Source of the DNA: Pseudonocardia broussonetiae
GTDB lineage: Bacteria; Actinomycetota; Actinomycetes; Mycobacteriales; Pseudonocardiaceae
DNA: 64,000 nt
Direction: 5' to 3'
NCBI RefSeq assembly: GCF_013155125.1
Contig: NZ_CP053564.1
Location: forward strand, 3,169,501 to 3,233,500
Shown: positions 2,893 through 14,218 of the stretch, in pieces
Layout: every line of letters starts with the position of its first letter
How positions within the stretch are numbered: the first letter of the stretch is position 1
Position numbers and translations under genes: made by a program
Notes under the pieces: model-generated
Told to the model about the DNA's origin: nothing
Databases searched by the model: none
What the model saw: the letters and a program-made list of their open reading frames with translations, nothing else

Positions 2893-4362
2893 TCACGCCG
2901 GGCCCAGGCGGGACCGGAGGGCGGCGACGAGGTCGGCGCGCGTCGCGGCGGCGAGCTTCTGCCGCAGCCGCGCCACGTGCTGCTCCACGGTCTTGGGGGA
3001 GATGTAGAGCCGCGCCCCGATCTCCTTGTGCGTGAGCCCGTCGACCACCAGCGCGCCGACCTCGCGCTCCCGGTCCGACAGCTCGTCGGAGCCGGCGGCC
3101 CGGCGGGGTCCGCGGGCCGGGCGCAGGCGGCGGCCGGTCTCCATCAGCGCCCGGGCCACGGCCGGGGCGCCGGCCCGCGCAGTCGCCTCGCGGCACAGCG
3201 CCGCGGCCTCCCACGGCCGCCCGGCCCGATCCAGGGCGGTGGCGACGGCGTCGACGGCGGTCGCGTCGACGTCCCCGTCGAGCACCGCGGCCCAGACGGC
3301 GGCGGCCTGGGCGCGGACCCGCAGCAGGGGCTGGTCGACGGCCAGCGCCGCCAGCGGCCCGGCCGCGGCGCGGGCGGCGGCGGCGTCGTCGGCGACGACC
3401 GCCCGCTCCAGCGCCCACCACAGCCGCGACGCCTCGGCCCACCAGGGCGACCCGGCGGCGGCGACGGCGGCGGCGATCGCGCCGGGCAGGTCGGCCGAGG
3501 GGTCGCCGACGAGCGCGGCGGCGACGGACAGCTCGCCCCAGGCGTCGATCAGGAACGGCTCGACGTCGGCTCCGGCCACCACCGGCGCGACCCGGTCCCA
3601 GGTGACGGCGAGCGCGGCCGGGTCGCTGCCGCGGCGGGCCAGCCCGACGCCGACGGCCGCGGCCAGCACGGCGTTGCGGCGCAGCACGGCGGTGCCGCCG
3701 ACGTCGGCCAGGGCCTCGCGGGCGTCGGACAGGCGTCCCGAGCGCAGGTCCAGCCAGGCGGCGAGCAGGCGCTGGCGGGTGGTCGGCAGCGTGCCGGGGA
3801 CCGGCTCGAGCATCGCGCGGGCGGCCCGCTCGTGCCCGCCCGCGGCGGCGACGGTGGCCGCCAGCTCGCCCCACTGCTCGGGCGCCAGCGCGTCGGGCGG
3901 GACGGTCGCGGCGGCGAGGCCCGCGAGGCGCCGCGCCGCGGGCTCGACGGCCCCGCGCAGCGCGTCGAGGGCCGCCGCGGACCCGTCGACGAGGACGGTC
4001 AGGCCGCGCGGGGCGGGGTCGGGCAGCCGGTCGCGGGCGTCCGCGAGGTCGGCGGTGCCGCCGGCGACGTCCCCGGCCAGCGCGCGGAGCAGCGCGGCGC
4101 GGGCGGTGGCCCACACCGCGGCGGCCTGCGCGCCGTCGGTGTCGAGGACGGCGGAGATGGCGCGCCAGCGGCCCGCCGCGTCGAGGAGGGCGCCGTCGGC
4201 GGCCCCGGCCGCGGCGGCGACCCCGGCGGCGCGGGCCCCGGGGTCCTCGCCCCCGGCGAGCGCGCGGTCGGCGGCGTCGATGGCGGCCAGGGCGTCCCCG
4301 CGCGCCCACGCCTGCTCGGCGCGGGCCGCGTCGCCGGCCTCGGTGACCGCGGGCGCGGTCAC
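2893..4362 (-). CDS. LuxR-family transcriptional regulator with alpha-helical repeat region
   Basis: A 489-residue protein. Residues 1 to about 420 are Ala-rich and helical, in the style of TPR-like sensor regions of large LuxR proteins, but no nucleotide-binding loop was seen. The last 65 residues are a LuxR helix-turn-helix with LSDREREVGALVVDGLTHKE and ISPKTVEQHVARLRQKL. The chosen GTG has GGAG six bases upstream; longer versions run into the dynamin gene in another frame. It lies 161 bases downstream of the second dynamin gene on the same strand. It may control that locus, or it may simply be its last gene. Confidence 0.85.
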   Translation of the reverse strand: MTAPAVTEAGDAARAEQAWARGDALAAIDAADRALAGGEDPGARAAGVAAAAGAADGALLDAAGRWRAISAVLDTDGAQAAAVWATARAALLRALAGDVAGGTADLADARDRLPDPAPRGLTVLVDGSAAALDALRGAVEPAARRLAGLAAATVPPDALAPEQWGELAATVAAAGGHERAARAMLEPVPGTLPTTRQRLLAAWLDLRSGRLSDAREALADVGGTAVLRRNAVLAAAVGVGLARRGSDPAALAVTWDRVAPVVAGADVEPFLIDAWGELSVAAALVGDPSADLPGAIAAAVAAAGSPWWAEASRLWWALERAVVADDAAAARAAAGPLAALAVDQPLLRVRAQAAAVWAAVLDGDVDATAVDAVATALDRAGRPWEAAALCREATARAGAPAVARALMETGRRLRPARGPRRAAGSDELSDREREVGALVVDGLTHKEIGARLYISPKTVEQHVARLRQKLAAATRADLVAALRSRLGPA

Positions 4363-4523
4363 GGTGTGCTCCGCTTCTCGGTGTGCGGCATGGCTGCTAC
4401 CCCCTGCTGTGGTGTCCGCCCATGCTGTGCCGGATCGGCGTGGCACTCCGTGTGCCCGTACACACTGCGGAGTGTCCGTCGGACCCGACACGGAGGAGGA
4501 CGCCCCGGGCCGCCTGATACCGC

Positions 4524-5999
4524 TCAGGGCGCGCGGACCGGCCGCGGCAGCCCGGCGAGGATGCCCTCGCACGTGCGGATCACGGTGTGGCAGGCGTCGG
4601 TCGCGCCCCGGGCCAGCATCGGGTTGGCGGCGTGGCGCCGCCAGCGCTCCAGCGCGCCGAACGCGGCGTGCCGCACCTCGCCGGGCGGGGCCCCGACCGG
4701 CAGGCCCAGGCGCGCGGCGGGGGCCGCGCCGGCGTCGCCGAGCAGCTGCTCGGCCTCCCGCGCCGCCGCCTCCGGCAGGGCGACCGCGCCCGAGCGCAGC
4801 GCCCCCAGCAGGCGCAGCTCGGCGAACTCGTGCGCCCCGGCGAGCACCCGCTCGACCTCGCGGGCCAGCGAGCCGTCGCGGCGCGTGCCCGTCAGCAGCG
4901 ACTCCACGGCCAGCAGTGCCGACCGCGACTTGAGCAGGTCGCGGCGGCCGGTGAACTGCGTGTGCAGCACGTTCTGCAGCTCGGTGAGCCCGCTGCGCGC
5001 GACGAGCTCGGCCGCGAGAGCGTCGGGCGTCGTCGCGCCCTGGCGGATCAGGCTGGCCGAGAGCCGGATGCCGAACAGCCCGAACCGGCGCACCAGCCGC
5101 TCGCGCTCGTCGGGCCCGTCGCCCGGGGCCGTGCCGCCGCGGCGGAAGCGGGCGACCGACAGCAGAGCCGACTCGAGGTCCTCGCGCGGCAGCGCCGCGA
5201 GCGCGGAGAGCGCGGTGTGCTCGGCGTGGCGCAGCGTCCGCCCGGTCTGCGCGAGCAGCCCCGCGACGGCGACGACGTCCTGGCACAGCCCGCGCACCGT
5301 CGGGTCCGACCGGTAGCGCGCCGCGATGCCGCGTGCGGAGAACATCGCGTCGACGCGCCCGCCGCCGATCTCGTCGGCGCGGGAGATCACCGCGACGGTG
5401 TTGACGGCCGTCGCCCGGGCGACCCCGCGATCGCGGAAGGACTCCAGGAACTCGGCGTCGGCGGCGTGCAGGTGGCGCATGAGGTAGACGACGGTGTCGG
5501 CCTCGGTGGGGGTGTCGTCGTCGGGGTCGAGGAAGGCCACGGTCCGCCGGGACGTCTGCACCGAGGTCGACGCGATCCCGGGGGTGTCGATCAGCGTCGA
5601 GGACCGCAGGCTCTCCGACGGCCAGTCGACGACGAGCCGCTCGACGTCGTCGGCCGACGCGCCCTCCATGTCGATGACGAGCGCGCCGTCCGCGCGCCGG
5701 ACCGTCAGCGGGACGGGACCGCCGACCTTGGGGTGCAGCACGATCCGCGGGACGCGGCCGTCGCGGTACCAGGTGACGACCCGCGTGCACTCCCCGGCGT
5801 CGGTCGGGGCGACGTGCTCGCCGACCAGCGCGTTGAGCAGCGTCGACTTGCCCGCCTTGACCTTCCCGGCGATCGCGACGCGCAGCGGCTCGTCGAGCCG
5901 CGCGAGCTGCGCCTGCATCCGCGCGACGACGGCCGGGTCGTCGCGGTGGGTCTCGATCGCCAGCAGCAGCACGCGGCGGGTGGCGGCCAGGAGGCTCAC
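4524..5999 (-). CDS. Dynamin-family GTPase, IniC-like
   Basis: A 491-residue dynamin-like GTPase. The G1 loop GKVKAGKS is at residues 45-52, the switch I threonine is probably within the ECTRVVTWY segment, and the G3 motif DTPG is at 138-141. The C-terminal half is helical, as expected for a dynamin stalk, and no clear membrane segment was seen. The ATG overlaps the stop of the upstream dynamin gene in a four-base ATGA, so the two are translationally coupled and probably made in fixed ratio. In mycobacteria the paired dynamins IniA and IniC follow iniB and act at the membrane during cell-envelope stress. The same order here supports an IniC-like role. Confidence 0.87.
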   Translation of the reverse strand: MSLLAATRRVLLLAIETHRDDPAVVARMQAQLARLDEPLRVAIAGKVKAGKSTLLNALVGEHVAPTDAGECTRVVTWYRDGRVPRIVLHPKVGGPVPLTVRRADGALVIDMEGASADDVERLVVDWPSESLRSSTLIDTPGIASTSVQTSRRTVAFLDPDDDTPTEADTVVYLMRHLHAADAEFLESFRDRGVARATAVNTVAVISRADEIGGGRVDAMFSARGIAARYRSDPTVRGLCQDVVAVAGLLAQTGRTLRHAEHTALSALAALPREDLESALLSVARFRRGGTAPGDGPDERERLVRRFGLFGIRLSASLIRQGATTPDALAAELVARSGLTELQNVLHTQFTGRRDLLKSRSALLAVESLLTGTRRDGSLAREVERVLAGAHEFAELRLLGALRSGAVALPEAAAREAEQLLGDAGAAPAARLGLPVGAPPGEVRHAAFGALERWRRHAANPMLARGATDACHTVIRTCEGILAGLPRPVRAP

Positions 6000-7825
6000 G
6001 ACGCGACCGCCTGCTTGGCGGGCCGGGGCAGCAGCGCCCGCGCGTCCGCCCGCACCGCCTCGAGCGCCGCCAGCTCCGCCGTGATCTCGGCGTGCCGCGC
6101 GGCCCGCTCGGCGTGGGACTGCTTGACCGCCCGCTCGGCCGCCTGCTGCGACTCCGCCAGCGAGCGCTTGAGCTGCTCGGCCTGCTCGGTGAAGTGGTCG
6201 CGCAGGTCGCGCTGCACCGCGCGCAGGCGGTCACGGGAGTCCTTGCCGACCTGGAACGTGACGTCGTCGACGTAGCGCTTGGCCGCCGTCTTGGCCTCGT
6301 TCTGCCGCTTGGTGACGATCCGCTTGCGCTCGTCGCCGACCGACTTGCCGGCCATCACGATGCCGGCGCCGATCCCGATCGGGTTGAAGATCGAGCCGAA
6401 CACGATGCTGCCGATCATGCCGAACATCAGCATGCCCATGTAGCCGCCCTTCATGCCGGTCAGCGCCTTGGCCCCGACGCCGAACGACTCCGCGCCGGGC
6501 ACCGCCATCCCGCGCACCGAGCGCAGCGCGTCCGACGGGTCGTTGCGCAGGGCGGGCAGCAGCTGGTCGCGGTCGGAGGAGAAGTGCTCGGCGACCTGGT
6601 GGGCGAGGTGGCGGGCGCGCTGGGTGGCCCAGACGAAGTTGGCCGCGGCCGCGTTCGCGACCTCCTGCTGCACCCAGCCCGCGAACTGGTCCCACACCTT
6701 CGTCGGGTCGCCGACGGCCGCGAGCTCGTCCTCGGCGAGGCGGCTGATCTCGCGCATGCGGTCGCGCAGGTCGTAGTCGATGTCGGCGTTGAGGTCGGCG
6801 ACGCCGTCGTTGAGCGTCTGCTGCCAGCGCGCCGAGCGCTCCTTGAGCGCGGTCGCCCGCTCCTGCGCCGCCGTCAGCCCGGCCATCAGCGCGGCCGCGG
6901 CCTCCGGGTCCTGGGCCGTCAGCTCGGCGCGCAGGCTCCCGGCGATCTGGTCGGTCACGGCGAGGACGTCGTGGACGACCCCGCGCCGCGCGATGCGGTC
7001 GGCCTGGCCCAGCACCCGCTTGCGGACGTAGCCGACGAGCGCGGGGAACCCCGACTCCGCGTTGGCCTCGGCGTCGTTGGTGACGACGGCGTGCCAGCGC
7101 AGCGTCGACGACACCTCGAACAGCTCGGCGCTGATCCCCGCCGCCGCCAGGTGCCCGCGGTCGAGCTCGGCGATGCGCGCCGACTCCGGGTAGAGGTCGG
7201 TCTTGGTGAGCACGCAGGCGACCGTCGGGCAGACCGACGCGGCGTGGCGCAGGAACTCCATCTCCGACGCCGTGTACTCCTGGGAGGCGTCGGAGACGAG
7301 CAGCACGGCGTCGGCCGACGGCAGGGCCGACATCGTCGCCGCGCCGTGCACCGACTGGAGCCCGCCGACGCCGGGGGTGTCGACGAGCTCCAGCCCGCCC
7401 GCGAGCACCGGCCGGGGCACGCCGACCTCGACGTGGCTCCAGCCCTCGCGGTTGCCCGGGTTGCCCTGCTCGCAGACGTGCGCGGCCAGGTCGGCGGCCG
7501 GGACGTCGACGCGCACGGGCTCGGTGCCCGGCCCGCCGCGGCGCACCAGCGTGACGGTGACGGCCTCGGCGTGCCGCACGACCGTCGGCACCGCGGTGGC
7601 GATGTCGTCGAACGTCGGGCAGACCGGGGCCCCGACCAGGCCGTTGACCAGCATCGACTTGCCCTGCTTGAACTCGCCGACGACCAGCACCCGCACCCGC
7701 CCGTCGAGCACGCGGGTGCGCGAGACGCGCAGCCGCTCGTCGAGGTCGGGGCGCTCGTAGCGGGCGATCGCCGCGAGGGCGCGGTCGACGGCCTGCGCGG
7801 GGTCGGTCCCTGCTGTCCCGCTCAT
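5996..7825 (-). CDS. Dynamin-family GTPase, IniA-like
   Basis: A 609-residue protein. The G1 loop GEFKQGKS is at residues 50-57, and G3 DTPGVGG and G4 TKTD motifs follow. A Gly/Ile/Met-rich hydrophobic stretch lies near residues 450-485 (LMFGMIGSIVFGSIFNPIGI), a likely membrane-insertion paddle as in IniA. It is followed by a long charged helix to the C terminus, and helical segments before the hydrophobic part probably form the stalk. The ATG at 7825 is 8 bases after the stop of the IniB-like gene. The frame is open upstream through that gene, but the composition there is Arg/His-rich shadow sequence, so the internal ATG is preferred. Confidence 0.88.
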   Translation of the reverse strand: MSGTAGTDPAQAVDRALAAIARYERPDLDERLRVSRTRVLDGRVRVLVVGEFKQGKSMLVNGLVGAPVCPTFDDIATAVPTVVRHAEAVTVTLVRRGGPGTEPVRVDVPAADLAAHVCEQGNPGNREGWSHVEVGVPRPVLAGGLELVDTPGVGGLQSVHGAATMSALPSADAVLLVSDASQEYTASEMEFLRHAASVCPTVACVLTKTDLYPESARIAELDRGHLAAAGISAELFEVSSTLRWHAVVTNDAEANAESGFPALVGYVRKRVLGQADRIARRGVVHDVLAVTDQIAGSLRAELTAQDPEAAAALMAGLTAAQERATALKERSARWQQTLNDGVADLNADIDYDLRDRMREISRLAEDELAAVGDPTKVWDQFAGWVQQEVANAAAANFVWATQRARHLAHQVAEHFSSDRDQLLPALRNDPSDALRSVRGMAVPGAESFGVGAKALTGMKGGYMGMLMFGMIGSIVFGSIFNPIGIGAGIVMAGKSVGDERKRIVTKRQNEAKTAAKRYVDDVTFQVGKDSRDRLRAVQRDLRDHFTEQAEQLKRSLAESQQAAERAVKQSHAERAARHAEITAELAALEAVRADARALLPRPAKQAVAS

Positions 7826-7833
7826 GGCGTCAC

Positions 7834-8632
7834 CTAGACGATCGCGGCGTCGACGTCGGCCTCGAGCTCGGGCTCGACGTCGGCCTCGACCTCGGACTCG
7901 GGCTCCGGTTCGGGTTCCGGCTCGACCTCCGCCACGACCGGTTCCTCCACCACCGGCTCCGGCTCGCCCTGCTCCGGCTCGACCTGCGTGGTGGCCTCCG
8001 GCTCCTCGGCGGGCCCGACGACGTCCTCGATCCCGATGCCGACCGGCGGGTTCACGGGCTCGGGGGTGCCGTCCTCGGCGACGGCGTCGTCGTCCTCGAC
8101 CGTGGTGTCGTTGTCCTCGATGTCGATCGTGTCGTTGTCGTTGATGATCGTGTCGTTGTCCTGGATCGCCGTGACGTCGTTGACGACCGACGAGCTGTCG
8201 TTGAACGAGTCGTCGATGATCGTGACGTCGTCGTCGGAGTTGAACGAGTCGTTGAAGATGACGTCGCGGTCGTCGATCTGGATGATCTGCGGGCCGACCT
8301 CGGTCACCTCGTAGTGCGTGGTCGTGTGGTGGATCTCGCGGACGGGGTCGTCGTGCTGGGAGCGCTGGCTCCCGCCGCCACCCCCGCCACCGCCACCGCC
8401 GCCGCCCCCCGCCCCCGCCGCCTCCGCCACTGCCTCCGCCGCCGTCCCCGTCGGGGCGGAGCACGCCGGAGTCCGACATCTGGAGCTGCGCGTCGCGCAC
8501 GTCCTGGCCGGTCAGGCCCTGGAGGCCGGCCTCCTCGATGGTGCGGTGCGGGTTCAGCTCGAACTGCTGCAGCTTGCCCTCGTCGCCCATCAGGTCGAGG
8601 AGGAATTCGATCACTTGGGACATGGCGAGCAC
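7834..8632 (-). CDS. IniB-like protein, split by an apparent frameshift in its poly-Gly tract
   Basis: The N-terminal part starts at GTG 8632, 8 bases after a GGAGGT site. It encodes an IniB-type N-terminal domain (SQVIEFLLDLMGDEGKLQQF, then NPHRTIEEAGLQGLTGQD). It then enters a poly-Gly run whose frame becomes Arg/Trp-rich. The +1 frame carries on with more Gly and then an acidic, Asn/Asp-rich repeat region (for example IIDDSFNDSSSVVND and DNDTIINDNDT) and a Glu/Pro tail, ending at 7834. Removing one G from the six-G run at 8405-8410 restores a single protein of about 265 residues. This could be a sequencing error or a real slippage site. IniB-type proteins precede the dynamins IniA and IniC in mycobacteria, as here. 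Confidence 0.7.
8405..8416 (-). other. Homopolymer runs at the probable frameshift point
   Basis: On the plus strand, runs of six and five C are separated by one G. They fall exactly where the reading frame of the IniB-like gene switches. Frame before the run encodes the IniB N-terminal domain and frame after it the acidic repeats. One base less in the first run reconciles them. Confidence 0.6.
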
Positions 8633-8702
8633 GGCGGTCCACCTCCGGGTCGGCCACCGGCCCCGTCCGCGACGCGCGCGGGCGGGGCCGGTGGGGAGTG
8701 CG

Positions 8703-9251
8703 TCAGCTGATGAAGTTGGTCAGGTCCAGGTCGGCGTCGGCGTCGGCGTCCTGGTCGGAGTCGTTGTCCTGGTCCGAGTCCTGGTCGTTGTCCTGGTCCG
8801 AGTCGAGGACCTGGGTGGCGTCGGCGTCCACGTCGACGTCGGAGTCGGCGTCGCCGCCGCGCCCGCCGGAGGCGTCGGCGTTGCCGCCGAAGCCGCCGTC
8901 GCCGCCCGTGCCGGTGCCGTTGGCGTCGCCGGTGTCACCGAAGTTGATGTTGACGCCGTCGGCGTTGTTGCCGCCGCCCTGGGCGATGCCGCCCGAGCTG
9001 CCGCCGATCCCGAGGCCGGAACCGCCGCTGGCGTCGCCGCCGACGGCCAGGCCGCCGTCGCCGCCGTTGCCGCCCTCGGTGCTGGTGGCCGTGGTGACGT
9101 CCTGGTCCTGGTCGCCGACCTGCGTCGTCTCCTGGTCGGAGACCTGAGCGCTCTCGTTCTGCTGGTCGGAGTCCTGGAGGAGGTTCTGGTCGAGGTCGAG
9201 GTCCTCGTTGAGGTTGGCGATGAAGCTCTCGACGTTGAACGAGCCGGTCAT
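8703..9251 (-). CDS. Acidic Gly/Asp/Asn-rich repeat protein of the dynamin locus
   Basis: A 182-residue protein of extreme composition. The first 30 residues (FNVESFIANLNEDLDLDQNL) look helical. The middle is Gly/Asn-rich (GGNGGDGGLAVGGDASGG), and the C terminus is almost only Asp, Gln, Ser and Ala (SDQDNDQDSDQDNDSDQDAD). There are no Cys residues, signal peptide or membrane segments. The ATG has AGGAG seven bases upstream. It is the first gene of the minus-strand dynamin set and its composition recalls the Gly-rich and Asp-rich parts of IniB-type proteins. I do not recognise a named family. Metal binding or a disordered scaffold role are possible but not shown. Confidence 0.8.
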   Translation of the reverse strand: MTGSFNVESFIANLNEDLDLDQNLLQDSDQQNESAQVSDQETTQVGDQDQDVTTATSTEGGNGGDGGLAVGGDASGGSGLGIGGSSGGIAQGGGNNADGVNINFGDTGDANGTGTGGDGGFGGNADASGGRGGDADSDVDVDADATQVLDSDQDNDQDSDQDNDSDQDADADADLDLTNFIS

Positions 9252-9530
9252 GGTGTTCTCCTGCGTGTCGGGTCGGCGCCGGGTCGCGCCCACCGGCGCT
9301 GCTTGCCGGTTGCCGAGAACCATGGGCTCCGGGGGCACCCCCGCGGATCCGGGCGACCCCCGGTCCGCCGCGGCCGCCGTACCGGGATCCCGGGCCGGTA
9401 CCGGCGGGCGGTAGGGGATCCGCCCGGTACTTCCGGCCCGCGGGCATCCGCCGCGGTGATGCTGACGTCCTGCTCCTCACGGCGCCCCGTACCCCGACGG
9501 GCCCCGGCGAGCGGTCACGGAGGAGAAGCG
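9252..9530. promoter_or_regulatory. Divergent intergenic region between the dynamin set and the Hsp70-like gene
   Basis: This 279-base stretch separates two divergent genes and must hold both promoters. It contains two adjacent perfect palindromes, CCGGGATCCCGG (9382-9393) and CCGGTACCGG (9395-9404), possible binding sites for a shared regulator. Such palindromes can arise by chance in DNA this rich in GC. No convincing -10 or -35 pair was identified. Confidence 0.35.
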
Positions 9531-11459
9531 ATGTACCAGCTGGGTGTGGACCTGGGCACGACGTGGTCGGCGGCCGCCGTCTGCCGCGACGGCGCCCGCA
9601 CGGCCGAGCCCGTGCCGCTCGGCGAGCACGGGCACGCCGTCGCCTCCGCGGTGTTCGCGGGCGCCGACGGCTCGTTCCTGCTCGGTGAGGCCGCCGAGCG
9701 CCGCGCGCTGTCGGACCCCGACCGCGTCGTGCGCGAGTTCAAGCGCCGCATCGGCGACCCGACGCCCGTCCTCGTCGGCCGCGAGCCCGTGCCGGCGGAG
9801 GTGCTGGCGGCGCGGTTCGTCGCTGCGCTGGTCCGGCAGGTGTCGCAGCGCGAGGGCGGCCCGCCGTCGCGGATCGCGGTGACGCACCCGGCCGGCTGGG
9901 GTCCGCACAAGACCGCCGCGCTGCGGGCCGCGCTGGCCGCGCAGGGCGTCGGGCCGCTGGTGCTGCTCTCCGAGCCGCAGGCCGCCGCCGTCGGGTACGC
10001 GAGCGCCGAGCGCGTCGAGGCCGGGTCGGTCGTCGCCGTCTACGACCTGGGCGGCGGCACCTTCGACGCCGCCGTGGTGCGCAAGGACCCGCGGGGCGGG
10101 TTCGCGCTGCTCGGGACGCCGGAGGGGATCGAGCGGCTCGGCGGCGTCGACTTCGACGAGGCCGTGTTCGCCCACGTCCGCGACGCGATCGGACCCGCCT
10201 GGGCGGAGCTGGACGGCACCGACCCCGCGGTCCTGGAGGCCGTCGCGCGGCTGCGGCGGGAGTGCACCGCGGCGAAGGAGGCGCTGTCGGTCGACACCGT
10301 CGTGCAGGTGCCGGTGATGCTGCCCGGGCTGCACACGCGGGTGCGGCTGGGGCGCGCCGAGTTCGAGGACATGGTCCGGCCGGCGATCGCCGAGACGGTC
10401 GACGCGCTGGCGCGGGCGCTGGCGTCCGCGGGGGTCGCGCCCGCCGACGTCGCGACGCTGCTGCTGGTCGGGGGCTCGTCGCGGATGCCGCTGGTGACCG
10501 AGCTCGTGTCCGCCGGCATCGGGCGTCCCGCATCGGCCGACGTCGACCCGAAGGGCGTCATCGCGGCCGGGGCGGCGCTCGTCGCGCGGGGGGCGTCGGC
10601 GCCCGCGGCGGAGGCGCTGGCCGCGCACGGCGCCGGGGCGATGTCCACCGACGACGGCTCGGCCGCCCGGGTGGCGGCGCTGCGGGCCGCGGCGTCGCGG
10701 GAGGGGTCGGTGCGGGACGCGGCGGCGCGGGACGCGACCGTGCGCGCCGTGCCGGTGCGGGGGGCGGCGGTCGGGAGTGCGGCCGCGGGCGGTGCTGCGG
10801 TGGGCGGTGCTGCCGCGGGCGGTGCTGCGGTGGGTGGCGCGGCCGTCGGGGGTCCGGGCCGCGGGGCCGCCGGGCCCGGGCCGGCGGGGGAGCCGCCGGT
10901 CACCCGGGCCCTGCGGCCGCCCCGGCCGGCGCGCCCGTTCGCGGAGGTCGAGGCGGCCGCGACGCGGCGCGCGATCCCGCGGCGCGTCCTCGCCGCGGCG
11001 GCGGCGAGCGTGCTGGCCGCCGGCGTGCTGGGCGGGGCGATCCTGTTCGCGAACCGCGCGGGACCGGACGCCTCCGCCGCGACGCCGGACCCGACGACGC
11101 TGAGCCGGGTCGAGCCCGCCGCCCCGACCACCACGACCGCCGCGCCGGAACCGGTCGAGCCCGAGCCCGAGCCCGAGCCGCCGGCCCCGGAGCCCGAGCC
11201 CGAGCCGGCCCCACGCACCGCCCCCCGGACCGCGGCGCCGCCCGCCCCGACCACGGCCCCGCCCACGATCGACCCGACCACAGCACCGCCCACGACGACC
11301 GACCCCACCACCGCCCCGCCGGACACCGGGGCGGCCGAGGGCTCGACGTCGGCGGCCCCGGCGGCCGTCGAGGGTGCGGTCGTGCCCGTCGTCCCGGACG
11401 CGCCCGCGGTCGATCCCGCGGACCTCGCCCCCGCCGCCGATCCGACCGGAGCGGCGTGA
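9531..11459 (+). CDS. Membrane-anchored Hsp70-like ATPase with Pro-rich tail
   Basis: A 642-residue protein. Residues 1 to about 350 are an Hsp70/actin-fold ATPase with phosphate-1 motif GVDLGTTWSAA (5-15) and phosphate-2 motif YDLGGGTFDA (171-180). There is no typical substrate-binding domain. Instead comes a low-complexity Ala/Gly/Val linker built from GGAAVGGAAAGG-like repeats, a single hydrophobic segment near 485-506, and a tail of about 135 residues rich in Pro, Glu and Thr (EPEPEPEPPAPEPEPEPAP). This implies a cytoplasmic ATPase and an exported tail. The ATG follows an excellent AGGAG. It is divergent from the dynamin/IniB set, suggesting a shared membrane-associated role. Confidence 0.87.
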   Translation: MYQLGVDLGTTWSAAAVCRDGARTAEPVPLGEHGHAVASAVFAGADGSFLLGEAAERRALSDPDRVVREFKRRIGDPTPVLVGREPVPAEVLAARFVAALVRQVSQREGGPPSRIAVTHPAGWGPHKTAALRAALAAQGVGPLVLLSEPQAAAVGYASAERVEAGSVVAVYDLGGGTFDAAVVRKDPRGGFALLGTPEGIERLGGVDFDEAVFAHVRDAIGPAWAELDGTDPAVLEAVARLRRECTAAKEALSVDTVVQVPVMLPGLHTRVRLGRAEFEDMVRPAIAETVDALARALASAGVAPADVATLLLVGGSSRMPLVTELVSAGIGRPASADVDPKGVIAAGAALVARGASAPAAEALAAHGAGAMSTDDGSAARVAALRAAASREGSVRDAAARDATVRAVPVRGAAVGSAAAGGAAVGGAAAGGAAVGGAAVGGPGRGAAGPGPAGEPPVTRALRPPRPARPFAEVEAAATRRAIPRRVLAAAAASVLAAGVLGGAILFANRAGPDASAATPDPTTLSRVEPAAPTTTTAAPEPVEPEPEPEPPAPEPEPEPAPRTAPRTAAPPAPTTAPPTIDPTTAPPTTTDPTTAPPDTGAAEGSTSAAPAAVEGAVVPVVPDAPAVDPADLAPAADPTGAA

Positions 11460-11517: not shown

Positions 11518-12186
11518 ATGCTCGAACCCGAGGAGTTCCTGGCCGGTCTGGACGACGCGGGGCGCACCGCGCTGTCCGCGCGGGGCCGGCACCGGCGCTG
11601 GCCCGCGGGCGCCACGCTGTTCCTGGAGGGCGACCGGTCGAGCACCGTGGTGGTCGTCGTCAGCGGCCGCGTGAAGGTCTTCTCGATCACCGAGCAGGGC
11701 GAGGAGGTGCTGCTCGCGGTGCGCGGGCCCGGCGCCCTGCTGGGCGAGCTGTCGGCGATCGACGGCACCGAGCGCGGCGCGTCGGTGGCCGCGCTGGAGC
11801 CGGTGGTGGCGCTCGTCGTGCCGGTGCCGGACTTCGTCGCCTTCCTCTCCAGCGAGCCGGGCGCGGCGATGGCGCTGCTGCGGCTGGTCACCTCCCGCCT
11901 GCGCGACGCCGACCGCAAGCGCGTCGAGTTCGGCGCCTTCGACATCGCCGCGCGCGTCGCCGGGCGCCTCGTCGAGCTCGCCGACCGGTTCGGCGAGCCC
12001 GTGCCCGACGGCGTCCGCATCCCGGTGCCGCTCTCGCAGGACGAGCTCGCCGGGTGGGTCGGGGCGTCGCGGGAGGCCGTGGCGAAGGCGCTGCGGGTGC
12101 TGCGCGACCGCGGCCTGCTCACCACCGGACGCCGGACGATGACCGTGCTCGACCTCGACGGCCTGCGCCGGAGGGCCCGTGGCTGA
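11518..12186 (+). CDS. Crp/Fnr-family cyclic-nucleotide-responsive regulator
   Basis: A 222-residue protein. Residues about 10-130 are a cyclic-nucleotide-binding beta-barrel (GATLFLEGD, then GPGALLGELSAIDG, where the phosphate-binding cassette lies). A dimerisation helix and a C-terminal winged helix at about 165-215 follow (LSQDELAGWVGASREAVAKA). The Glu of GELSAIDG is the residue that usually contacts the cyclic nucleotide ribose, so cAMP binding is plausible. The ATG is preceded by GGAGG at a short spacing. It begins 58 bases after the Hsp70-like gene and overlaps the downstream adenylate cyclase by 8 bases, so sensor and cyclase are probably made together. Confidence 0.9.
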   Translation: MLEPEEFLAGLDDAGRTALSARGRHRRWPAGATLFLEGDRSSTVVVVVSGRVKVFSITEQGEEVLLAVRGPGALLGELSAIDGTERGASVAALEPVVALVVPVPDFVAFLSSEPGAAMALLRLVTSRLRDADRKRVEFGAFDIAARVAGRLVELADRFGEPVPDGVRIPVPLSQDELAGWVGASREAVAKALRVLRDRGLLTTGRRTMTVLDLDGLRRRARG

Positions 12187-14218
12187 CACCCGGGGCGTGC
12201 CCGCGCGCGTCGTGGTCTGGGCGTTCCACCTCGCGCTGCCGCTGGCCGGGCTGTGGCTGCTGCTCGCCGTGCCCGCCGCCGACGTGCGCCTGGAGCACCA
12301 CCCGACGCACTTCTGGCTGATCGCGCTCGCCGCCGCGCTCAACGTCGGCCTGTCGGTGCTGGTCGCGCGCGCCGCCCGCCGCCACGACGACGCCCGCCTG
12401 CTGCTGGTCGGGCTCGGGTTCCTGGCCGCCGCGCTGTTCCTCGGGCTGCACGCGCTGGCCACGCCCGGGGTGCTGCTCGGGAGCCGCAACGGCGGGTTCG
12501 CGCTCGCCACGCCGGTCGGGCTGGCGCTGGCGGCGCTGTGCACCGCCGCGTCGGTCGTCGACCTGCCGTCGGCGACGGTCCTGCGCCTGGCCCCGTGGCT
12601 GCGCCGCGGGCTGCTCGCGATCGCCGCCCTGTGGGGCGTGGTGTCGCTCGCCGGGCTGCCGCCGCTGGCCGACCCGGCGCTGGCGGAGCGGCTCTCCGGC
12701 CCGCTCGTCGTCGTCGCGGGGATCTCGGTGGTGCTCTACGGCGTCGTCACCGTCCGCTACTACCAGCTCTACCGCCGCCGCCGCTCGGTGATGCTGCTGT
12801 CGATCCTCACGGCCAACGTGCTGCTGGCCGAGGCCATGGTCGCCGTGGTGCTGGGGCCGAGCTGGCACCTGACGTGGTGGCTGTGGCACGTGCTGATGGC
12901 GCTGGCGTTCGGCTACATCGGCTACAGCGCGTACGCGGGGTACCAGGCCGAGGGCGCCACCACCGGGCTGTTCGACGGGGTGCGCACCGAGGAGACGGTG
13001 CAGGCCGTGCGCGCGGAGTACGGGGCCGCGCTGGAGGCGCTGGTGTCGGCGGTGCGCCGGCAGGAGGCGGGGGAGATCTCCGCCGACGAGATGGGGCTGA
13101 TCACCGCGGGGATGGCGTCGCGGTTCGGGCTGACCGAGGGCCAGACCGCGGTGCTCGGGCGGGCCGCGTCGGCGCTGCGGGGGGAGCGCGAGCAGATCGG
13201 GCGCCTGGGCGTGCTGGTGGCGATCGGGCACGAGTCGCGCGTCCGGCTCGCCGAGGACGACCTCCTGCGCCGCGCCGTCACCCGCGTCGCCGACGGCTTC
13301 GACGGCCACGCCGTCCGCATCGGCCTGCTCGAGGACGGCGACCTGCGCTGGCCCGGCGCCCTGAGCACCGACCCCACGTGGACCGCGCCCGTCGCGCTGC
13401 CCGAGGGGCTCGACCCCGTCGAGACCGGCGACGACGTGCTCGCCTGCCCGCTGACCGTCAAGGACCTCCCCGCCGGCGTGCTCCTCGTCCGGCGCCCCGG
13501 CGGGTTCGGCGACCGCGACCGCTCCCTGCTCGCGTCCCTGGCCAGCCAGCTCTCGATGGGCATGGAGAACGCACGGCTCTACCACCAGCTCGACGGGCTG
13601 TTCCGCGCGTACATGTCGCCCGACGTCGCCACGGCGCTGCTCGCCGACCCCGCGCAGGCCGCGCTCGGCGGCGCGGTCGTCGACGTCACGGCGGTGTTCG
13701 CCGACCTCCGCGGCTTCACGACGTTCTCCGAGCGGTCGAGCCCGGAGGAGATCGTCGTGCTGCTCAACCGCTACTTCGAGGTGGCGACGGCGGCCGTGCT
13801 GGCCGAGGGCGGCACGGTCGTGCAGTTCGTCGGCGACGCGATGATGGCGCTGTTCGGCGCGCCCGCCCGCCAGCCCGACCACGCCGTGCGGGCCGTCCGC
13901 GCCGCGCTCGCCCTGCAGGAGGGCATCGCCGCGATCGCCGACGACGACGGCCCCACGTTCCGCGTCGGGGTCAACACCGGGCCCGCGCTCGTCGGCAACA
14001 TCGGCAGCACCGCGCTGCGCAACTTCAACGCGATGGGCGACGCCGTGAACGTCGCCGCGCGGCTGGAGTCGGTCGCCGAGCCGGGGCAGGTCGTGATCGG
14101 GGAGGCCACGCGGGCGCTGCTGCCCGCGGACACGGACGTCGAGGCGCTGGGGGAGCTCGCGGTCAAGGGCCGCCGCGGGCCCGTCACGGCGTTCCGCCTG
14201 AAGGCCCTGCCCGCCTAG
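12179..14218 (+). CDS. Membrane-bound class III adenylate/guanylate cyclase with GAF domain
   Basis: A 679-residue protein. Residues about 10-265 contain six or seven hydrophobic segments, about 340-470 is a GAF-like sensor (GHESRVRLAEDDLLRRAV to SLASQLSMGMENARLYHQL), and about 495-665 is the cyclase domain. Both metal-binding Asp motifs are present, VFADLRGFTTF and QFVGDAMMALFG. The substrate-selecting residue before VGD is Gln, where many adenylate cyclases have Lys. The nucleotide choice is therefore less certain. The GTG start overlaps the Crp-like gene by 8 bases. A plausible circuit is that the cyclase makes cAMP and the Crp-like protein reads it. Confidence 0.9.
   Translation: MADTRGVPARVVVWAFHLALPLAGLWLLLAVPAADVRLEHHPTHFWLIALAAALNVGLSVLVARAARRHDDARLLLVGLGFLAAALFLGLHALATPGVLLGSRNGGFALATPVGLALAALCTAASVVDLPSATVLRLAPWLRRGLLAIAALWGVVSLAGLPPLADPALAERLSGPLVVVAGISVVLYGVVTVRYYQLYRRRRSVMLLSILTANVLLAEAMVAVVLGPSWHLTWWLWHVLMALAFGYIGYSAYAGYQAEGATTGLFDGVRTEETVQAVRAEYGAALEALVSAVRRQEAGEISADEMGLITAGMASRFGLTEGQTAVLGRAASALRGEREQIGRLGVLVAIGHESRVRLAEDDLLRRAVTRVADGFDGHAVRIGLLEDGDLRWPGALSTDPTWTAPVALPEGLDPVETGDDVLACPLTVKDLPAGVLLVRRPGGFGDRDRSLLASLASQLSMGMENARLYHQLDGLFRAYMSPDVATALLADPAQAALGGAVVDVTAVFADLRGFTTFSERSSPEEIVVLLNRYFEVATAAVLAEGGTVVQFVGDAMMALFGAPARQPDHAVRAVRAALALQEGIAAIADDDGPTFRVGVNTGPALVGNIGSTALRNFNAMGDAVNVAARLESVAEPGQVVIGEATRALLPADTDVEALGELAVKGRRGPVTAFRLKALPA

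Follow-up and report, generated by a model that had tools for sequence, protein, structure and literature searches.

The stretch of DNA analysed here (the window: 64,000 nucleotides, NZ_CP053564.1 3169501-3233500) belongs to the 7.29-Mb genome of Pseudonocardia broussonetiae. Near its start lies a gene cluster related to the iniBAC operon of mycobacteria, which is strongly induced there by first-line cell-wall drugs. The order of genes in the window is IniR-like regulator, iniC, iniA, iniB, a gene for an acidic protein and, divergently oriented, an hsp70 gene. We read the locus as an iniBAC-type envelope-stress module that includes a dedicated membrane-anchored ATPase of the Hsp70 family; this function is what we infer from the comparisons below, with a probability of about 0.55. 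The features of the locus are as follows.

2893-4362, minus strand: IniR-like LuxR-type regulator, 489 amino acids (NF038181, 82 bits, profile positions 327-825; PF00196, LuxR helix-turn-helix (HTH))
4524-5999, minus strand: IniC-type dynamin GTPase, 491 amino acids (PF00350, 47 bits)
5996-7825, minus strand: IniA-type dynamin GTPase, 609 amino acids (PF00350; PDB 6j72, 422 bits)
7834-8430, minus strand: iniB-like gene, acidic repeat tail (DSFN-type repeats), in a frame differing from that of the N-terminal domain
8450-8623, minus strand: iniB-like gene, codons 1-58, IniB N-terminal domain (NF038175, 43.8 bits)
8703-9251, minus strand: acidic Gly/Asp protein, first gene of the operon, 182 amino acids (orthologue L011_6)
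9252-9530, no strand: divergent intergenic region common to the acidic/iniB operon and hsp70
9411-9420, plus strand: GTAGGGGATC, candidate IniR-type operator box, read toward hsp70 (consensus TTRGGGGAT)
9531-11459, plus strand: Hsp70-type ATPase, 642 amino acids (PF00012, 167 bits)

Proteins encoded at the locus

The Hsp70-type protein consists of a nucleotide-binding domain (NBD, residues 1-353), a disordered linker, one hydrophobic segment (residues 486-504; a predicted transmembrane (TM) helix with an Arg-rich stretch just before it) and a tail of 138 residues, 26% of them Pro, which is predicted to lie outside the cell. An earlier note on this DNA, made from the sequence alone, had described a divergent Hsp70-like ATPase with a TM helix and an exported Pro-rich tail, and the single hydrophobic segment agrees with that description, the outer location of the tail being a prediction. 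The protein matches PF00012 above the gathering score, and its phosphate, Lys and adenosine motifs are intact (D7, K71, E148, D172, T177 and G314-G315 are kept). When it was aligned with the genome's own DnaK, neither a substrate-binding domain (SBD) nor a VLLL linker was found, and no confident domain was seen after residue 353 in the AlphaFold model, in which the predicted local distance difference test (pLDDT) values are mostly 77-96 in the NBD (one block at 64) and low beyond it, with a helix at 484-501. It is like the DnaK/Hsp70 chaperones in its NBD and catalytic residues, but in place of the hydrophobic linker and SBD of a DnaK-type chaperone it has a predicted TM anchor and outer tail. 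A hydrophobic TM-type segment follows the domain in 47 of the 51 proteins that score above 400 bits to the Hsp70 profile (the one in the window included); of the four without it, two (L025, L036) are truncated where their contigs end. Among named relatives Pseudonocardia oceani (L011) is the closest, with an Hsp70 that is 98% identical across 396 columns.

The first dynamin matches the solved IniA of M. smegmatis (PDB 6j72) over nearly its full length (422 bits, residues 12-591) and is an IniA orthologue; the second follows it in the overlapping order of iniBAC and gave weak PDB matches to dynamins, IniA included. The chain of genes with its divergent Hsp70 had been described correctly, and its exact coordinates were determined, with the exception of the ATGA coupling of the dynamin genes: their 4-bp overlap reads GTGA, because the start codon of iniC is GTG. 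IniA had also been taken for a membrane-fusing dynamin; the available text of Wang 2019 (PMC6715688) reports GTP-dependent membrane fission, with no fusion detected.

An IniB-type gene is present, as proposed (NF038175, 43.8 bits against a cut-off of 40), but not as a single open frame. In this assembly its N-terminal domain and acidic tail do not share a frame, the change falling in a G-rich glycine tract (8380-8440), and the frame of the N-terminal domain stays open into iniA (an 878-codon open reading frame, 5996-8632). The orthologue in P. oceani is intact (L011, 8293-9105), and the frame change may be a sequencing error or a true mutation. An AlphaFold model of an IniB relative from Lentzea contains only the helical N-terminal domain (helices within residues 6-57), past which every 10-residue block has a mean pLDDT of 60 or less; the model suggests that the IniB-type tail consists of disordered acidic repeats. 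A beta-solenoid or amyloid-like tail, prompted by the regular DSFN-type repeats, was rejected on this low-confidence model. A Foldseek search with the model yielded no match at E<=0.001, and its three IniB rows (E 7.7-9.9, including chains of ribosomally synthesized and post-translationally modified peptide precursors) are not evidence. The acidic Gly/Asp protein (net charge about -40) gave no match to the profile of the IniB N-terminal domain.

The LuxR-type regulator corresponds to the C-terminal half of IniR with the LuxR HTH, without the N-terminal ATPase. Its 82 bits to NF038181, confined to profile positions 327-825, lie below the cut-off of 750 bits for IniR (ATPase, MalT-like region and LuxR HTH), as do the 345 and 349 bits of the fuller-length proteins of two sister modules in the same genome. 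It is classed here as IniR-like, not IniR, and plausibly works like IniR. What the earlier note had regarded as an extra part of a new machine is instead a shortened relative of a known iniBAC activator, which binds ahead of iniBAC according to the available text of Boot 2017 (PMC5760070).

Hsp70 and iniBAC genes in other genomes

Conservation of the neighbourhood was tested from the Hsp70, IniA and IniR sides. Starting from Hsp70 alone (at least 40 loci), IniA and/or IniC were in reach at 28 of 40 loci among the matches listed. On the IniA side, 26 of 148 class-level genomes gave 31 matches, and the 28 outside this genome were fetched; in 20 of these 28 the fetched stretch encodes an Hsp70 that is not canonical DnaK (19 labelled loci plus L079, with a weak Hsp70 at 72 bits), and 15 IniA loci have the same kind of Hsp70 as the window. 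The expected number of IniA loci with any Hsp70 was 0.67, and the maximum of 200,000 simulations was 7. On the IniR side, 31 of 120 order-level genomes gave 33 matches, from which this genome and five loci seen before were left out and 26 were fetched. An Hsp70 stands beside IniR and IniB in 21 of these 26 further loci, 20 of them also with IniA and IniC; among the misses, L117 is without an Hsp70, the stretches of L100 and L118 start close to the beginning of a contig, and gene calling was incomplete in L095 and L120. L071/L119 (genome G102) and L080/L118 (genome G092), paired by their contig ends, each probably represent one module that is divided between contigs. The association of Hsp70 with IniB/dynamin genes is far above chance, and the proposal that Hsp70 belongs with them held from all three sides. 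An Hsp70-type ATPase is a frequent, little-noticed neighbour of iniBAC genes in related bacteria.

The genes are closely packed in several layouts. In seven Amycolatopsis loci (start positions from our own gene caller), iniA, iniC and one further gene each overlap the next by 4 bp, and hsp70 follows the further gene after 1-2 bp. In the 21 held-out loci hsp70 lies just ahead of iniR, and in 14 of them the two genes overlap by 4 bp. P. broussonetiae itself has three modules (the window, L009 and L059), each with an Hsp70; a distant dynamin pair stands beside another Hsp70 at L062. For 10 of 10 modules from Pseudonocardia the nearest neighbour of Hsp70 is also that of IniA, and over the full set this is true of 36 of 47 loci; therefore, the modules largely travel as units.

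Hsp70s in IniR loci are of two types, with 24 intact ATP sites (L077_0, which is DnaK itself, included) and 30 degenerate ones. The gene iniR lies directly downstream of none of the 24 intact Hsp70s vs 26 of the 30 degenerate ones (Fisher p 1.5e-11), so that the ATP site is degenerate in all 26 Hsp70s directly before iniR. For L108-L114 some of the key alignment columns are gaps in the majority of rows, and 'degenerate' rests on divergence; the Hsp70 tree and the ATP-site comparison omit L077_14, L037_11, L021_15 and L028_6. Degeneracy is counted as one evolutionary event because one change suffices on the IniA tree (locus states entered from a typed list based on the ATP-site alignment), and the split was rejected as independent evidence. 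Two loci with degenerate Hsp70s, L074 and L115, have IniR scores of 1278 and 1434 bits (cut-off 750), so the degenerate type belongs to a bona fide iniBAC/IniR locus. On account of the IniR scores and of an Rv0340-family gene (224 bits in L074 and 237 bits in L079; cut-off 100), we equate family code f2 and genus code g2 with Mycobacterium. In such Mycobacterium-like loci a degenerate Hsp70-like gene is found beside iniC in L074 and L079 and beyond iniR in L115 and L116, as a second copy except in L079.

Some further neighbours of these Hsp70s were recorded. In Kribbella (L044, L046) the same Hsp70 type stands among genes of contractile-injection type, and an iniA/iniC pair lies some 6 kb off; Pfam matches in L044 include Pvc16_N, an AAA domain with winged helix and a phage-type sheath, and L046 was assigned by the same gene clusters, Pfam having been run on L044 only. 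At L088 and L089 dynamin pairs adjoin distant Hsp70s, that of L088 fused to a WD40 propeller. A small lipoprotein-like gene adjoins hsp70 on the iniB side in L009 (9952-10551), L020 (9392-9910; DUF3558), L014, L016, L021 and L049.

Candidate operator box and flanking genes

A box read in one direction, TTRGGGG(AT), marks the shared promoter and tracks IniR; we take it to resemble the MalT box. It was first noticed by eye in intergenic regions, and early tests were made on overlapping data; a held-out test on newly fetched loci is fairer, with genomes G092 and G102 sampled earlier at other loci. Among 29 shared promoters, 15 contain TTRGGGG, with 36 copies in total, 31 of them read toward hsp70; its density is 4.74 per kb, compared with 0.11 per kb for a control set of 323 intergenic regions, and shuffled shared promoters contain 3.15 on average (maximum 9). 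A count per locus, in which either TTRGGGG or TAGGGGAT ahead of module genes was scored as the box, covered the 53 loci of the discovery set whose IniA/IniC reach 300 bits; the box is present in 24 of 29 IniR-positive vs 1 of 24 IniR-negative loci (L080, at a contig end). Among the held-out regions TTRGGGG was found in 20 of 21 (the miss is L105), 32 times forward and never in reverse, vs 4 occurrences in 25.5 kb of held-out controls and a mean of 3.1 (maximum 9) in 200 shuffles. The looser pattern KTWRGGGGRT has 14 matches in the whole genome (7.29 Mb) vs 8 when read backwards, and three of its matches lie within 29 bp in the promoter of module 3. The copy in the window, GTAGGGGATC (9411-9420), is one base from TTAGGGGAT and is, alone, not significant in the window.

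Another AAA-LuxR regulator, AbsR2-like in two tested, replaces IniR in modules of Amycolatopsis and Actinomycetospora (L029-L035, L037, L038, L045, L047), between whose genes no TTRGGGG/TAGGGGAT box was found.

Two flanking regions of the window were also inspected. A Crp/Fnr regulator followed by a GAF/adenylate-cyclase protein (11518-14218) begins 58 bp 3' of hsp70; these genes are common only to L011, L012 and, inverted, L015 (clustered loci), and were rejected as module members. An 852-aa (amino acid) protein at 188-2746 resembles, as judged by eye, a carboxylate-amine ligase domain plus an ATP-grasp-type domain.

Proposed function and alternative explanations

Extrapolating from the known families, envelope stress would activate the IniR-type regulator, and this in turn would switch on iniB-iniA-iniC from the shared promoter, probably together with hsp70. 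IniA and IniC would then remodel or cut the plasma membrane and so keep it intact. With less certainty, the Hsp70 domain may sit at the inner face of the membrane with its tail in the wall, and may spend ATP on assembling or releasing the acidic disordered IniB-type proteins via their helical N-terminal domain, and/or the dynamins; it might thereby position or recycle the remodelling complex.

Several observations weigh against an envelope-stress module with Hsp70 as a dedicated part. Dynamins are out of reach at 12 of the 40 listed Hsp70 loci (L012, L014, L025-L028, L040-L043, L048, L050), several of which are not cut by contig ends (L012 and L014 are cut upstream), and L060 and L061, close paralogues in the same genome, do not stand beside an iniA-iniC pair; it follows from both that the Hsp70 can stand apart. 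Eight of the 28 IniA loci (L071, L082-L087, L091) have no such Hsp70 in the stretch, three of them with an Hsp70 about 11-15 kb away. Five of the 20 positives (L088-L090, L092, L093) are distant Hsp70s, outside the tree group of the one in the window, beside distant dynamins whose IniA scores are only 206-243 bits; in the tree, the Hsp70s of L090 and L093 fall on the DnaK side. In L079, which is a bona fide IniR locus, no Hsp70 lies between iniR and iniB, and there is only a weak Hsp70-like gene, beside iniC. A classical chaperone cycle is not to be assumed for the Hsp70 of the window because it has no SBD, and mycobacterial Hsp70s have no functional ATP site. No strict box is present in the IniR-positive loci L009 (module 2 here), L013, L015, L018 and L049. 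The genomes counted are related and not independent. Two points in the available text of Boot 2017 (PMC5760070) speak against an essential Hsp70: deletion of iniR in M. tuberculosis altered only iniBAC, and a dnaK-like gene is mentioned for M. smegmatis only.

A wider evolutionary account would join these results, and we offer it tentatively, as possible in its entirety. The ancestral actinobacterial iniBAC would have been an Hsp70-dynamin machine, in which a TM-anchored Hsp70 ATPase without SBD, the dynamin pair and disordered IniB scaffolds repair the plasma membrane under stress. Once, toward the mycobacteria and their relatives, the Hsp70 would have lost its ATP site, become translationally coupled to iniR and come to control IniR, with TTRGGGGAT as the IniR operator.

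The MalT protein of E. coli is held by MalK, and by analogy the Hsp70 might be a membrane sensor or anti-activator that keeps the MalT-like IniR at the membrane until the outer tail senses envelope damage. This explanation is rather doubtful. It draws on the 26 loci in which hsp70 lies directly before and co-directional with iniR, on the 4-bp overlap in 14 of the 21 held-out ones, and on the degenerate ATP site of all 26 Hsp70s concerned, which fits binding rather than catalysis; moreover, the available text of Boot 2017 (PMC5760070) places the sensing that leads to induction in the periplasm, with IniR as a DNA-binding ATPase regulator. However, the window and its relatives have iniR at the opposite end of the locus and an Hsp70 whose ATP site is kept, the search for a TM helix was negative for 11 of the 21 iniR-adjacent Hsp70s in the held-out set, some loci with Hsp70 and dynamins have another or no labelled IniR, and the correlation with degeneracy amounts to the single change on the IniA tree. 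A sensor fits the coupled degenerate type better than it fits the window.

The envelope-stress module also has to be set against a role in phage defence or another biological conflict and against mere common descent, both of which are very unlikely. The DO-GTPase/GAP1-N2 systems, as far as described in the available text of Kaur 2020 (PMC7159879), likewise have paired GTPases and an Hsp70, which in some of them lacks the peptide-binding domain, and they too are associated with the membrane and found in actinobacteria; those systems, however, have separate TRAFAC GTPases, often with zinc ribbons, GAP1 and tubulin/FNIII, where the window has dynamins, IniB and an IniR-type protein. Both GTPases of the window match dynamins, one of them the solved IniA (no DO-GTPase model was run). 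The Kribbella copy among contractile-injection-type genes and matches to Leo dynamin models in PADLOC would also suit an anti-phage system, but the latter reach only 68 bits, Hsp70 and the acidic protein had no PADLOC match (the iniB-like gene was not included), and the defence machine of the earlier note was rejected on these weak matches. A Pfam scan of nine window sequences found no nuclease, TIR or other effector domain, and orthologous modules with an IniR-type stress regulator recur across several genera. As to a neighbourhood without functional link, in which Hsp70 hitchhikes beside iniBAC, the relatedness of the genomes, with many counts from few families, and the mere 7 changes needed for Hsp70 presence on the IniA tree would allow it; against this, the link survives three layouts (divergent from iniB, in a run after iniC, coupled to iniR), extends to 7 family codes besides that of the window (f17, and f3 on the IniA side, only via the distant type), and the Hsp70 is kept in all three paralogous modules of this genome.

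The CjDLP1/2 and LeoABC systems are like the window in encoding dynamin-like GTPases together; we know of no Hsp70, IniB or IniR part in them. With iniBAC and IniR of Mycobacterium, as described in the available text of PMC5760070 and PMC6715688, the locus has in common the IniB N-terminal domain, overlapping IniA/IniC, a nearby IniR-type regulator and a small gene before iniB. It differs in the ATP-site-intact, predicted TM-anchored Hsp70 on the shared promoter, in the three modules of this genome, in the regulator without ATPase half placed after iniC, and in the acidic Gly/Asp protein as first gene. The Hsp70-like protein of the bona fide IniR loci L074 and L115, in contrast to that of the window, has a degenerate ATP site. 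In our literature search of titles and the openings of abstracts (most subscription papers and all bioRxiv preprints not covered) no description of Hsp70 as an iniBAC component was found. The earlier statement that these parts had not been described as one system was nearly right; one sentence in the available text of Boot 2017 (PMC5760070) notes that in M. smegmatis a dnaK-like gene lies downstream of iniR, likewise an Hsp70-type gene at an iniR/iniBAC locus, and proposes no role for it.

The conserved DNA box offers a testable candidate operator. The recurring Hsp70, which many genomes have packed against iniR or behind iniA-iniC, is a candidate for a missing link in IniR sensing or IniB function. 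If the proposed module is real, it would be a bacterial example of Hsp70 and dynamins cooperating at a membrane, a pairing otherwise familiar from eukaryotic vesicle traffic.

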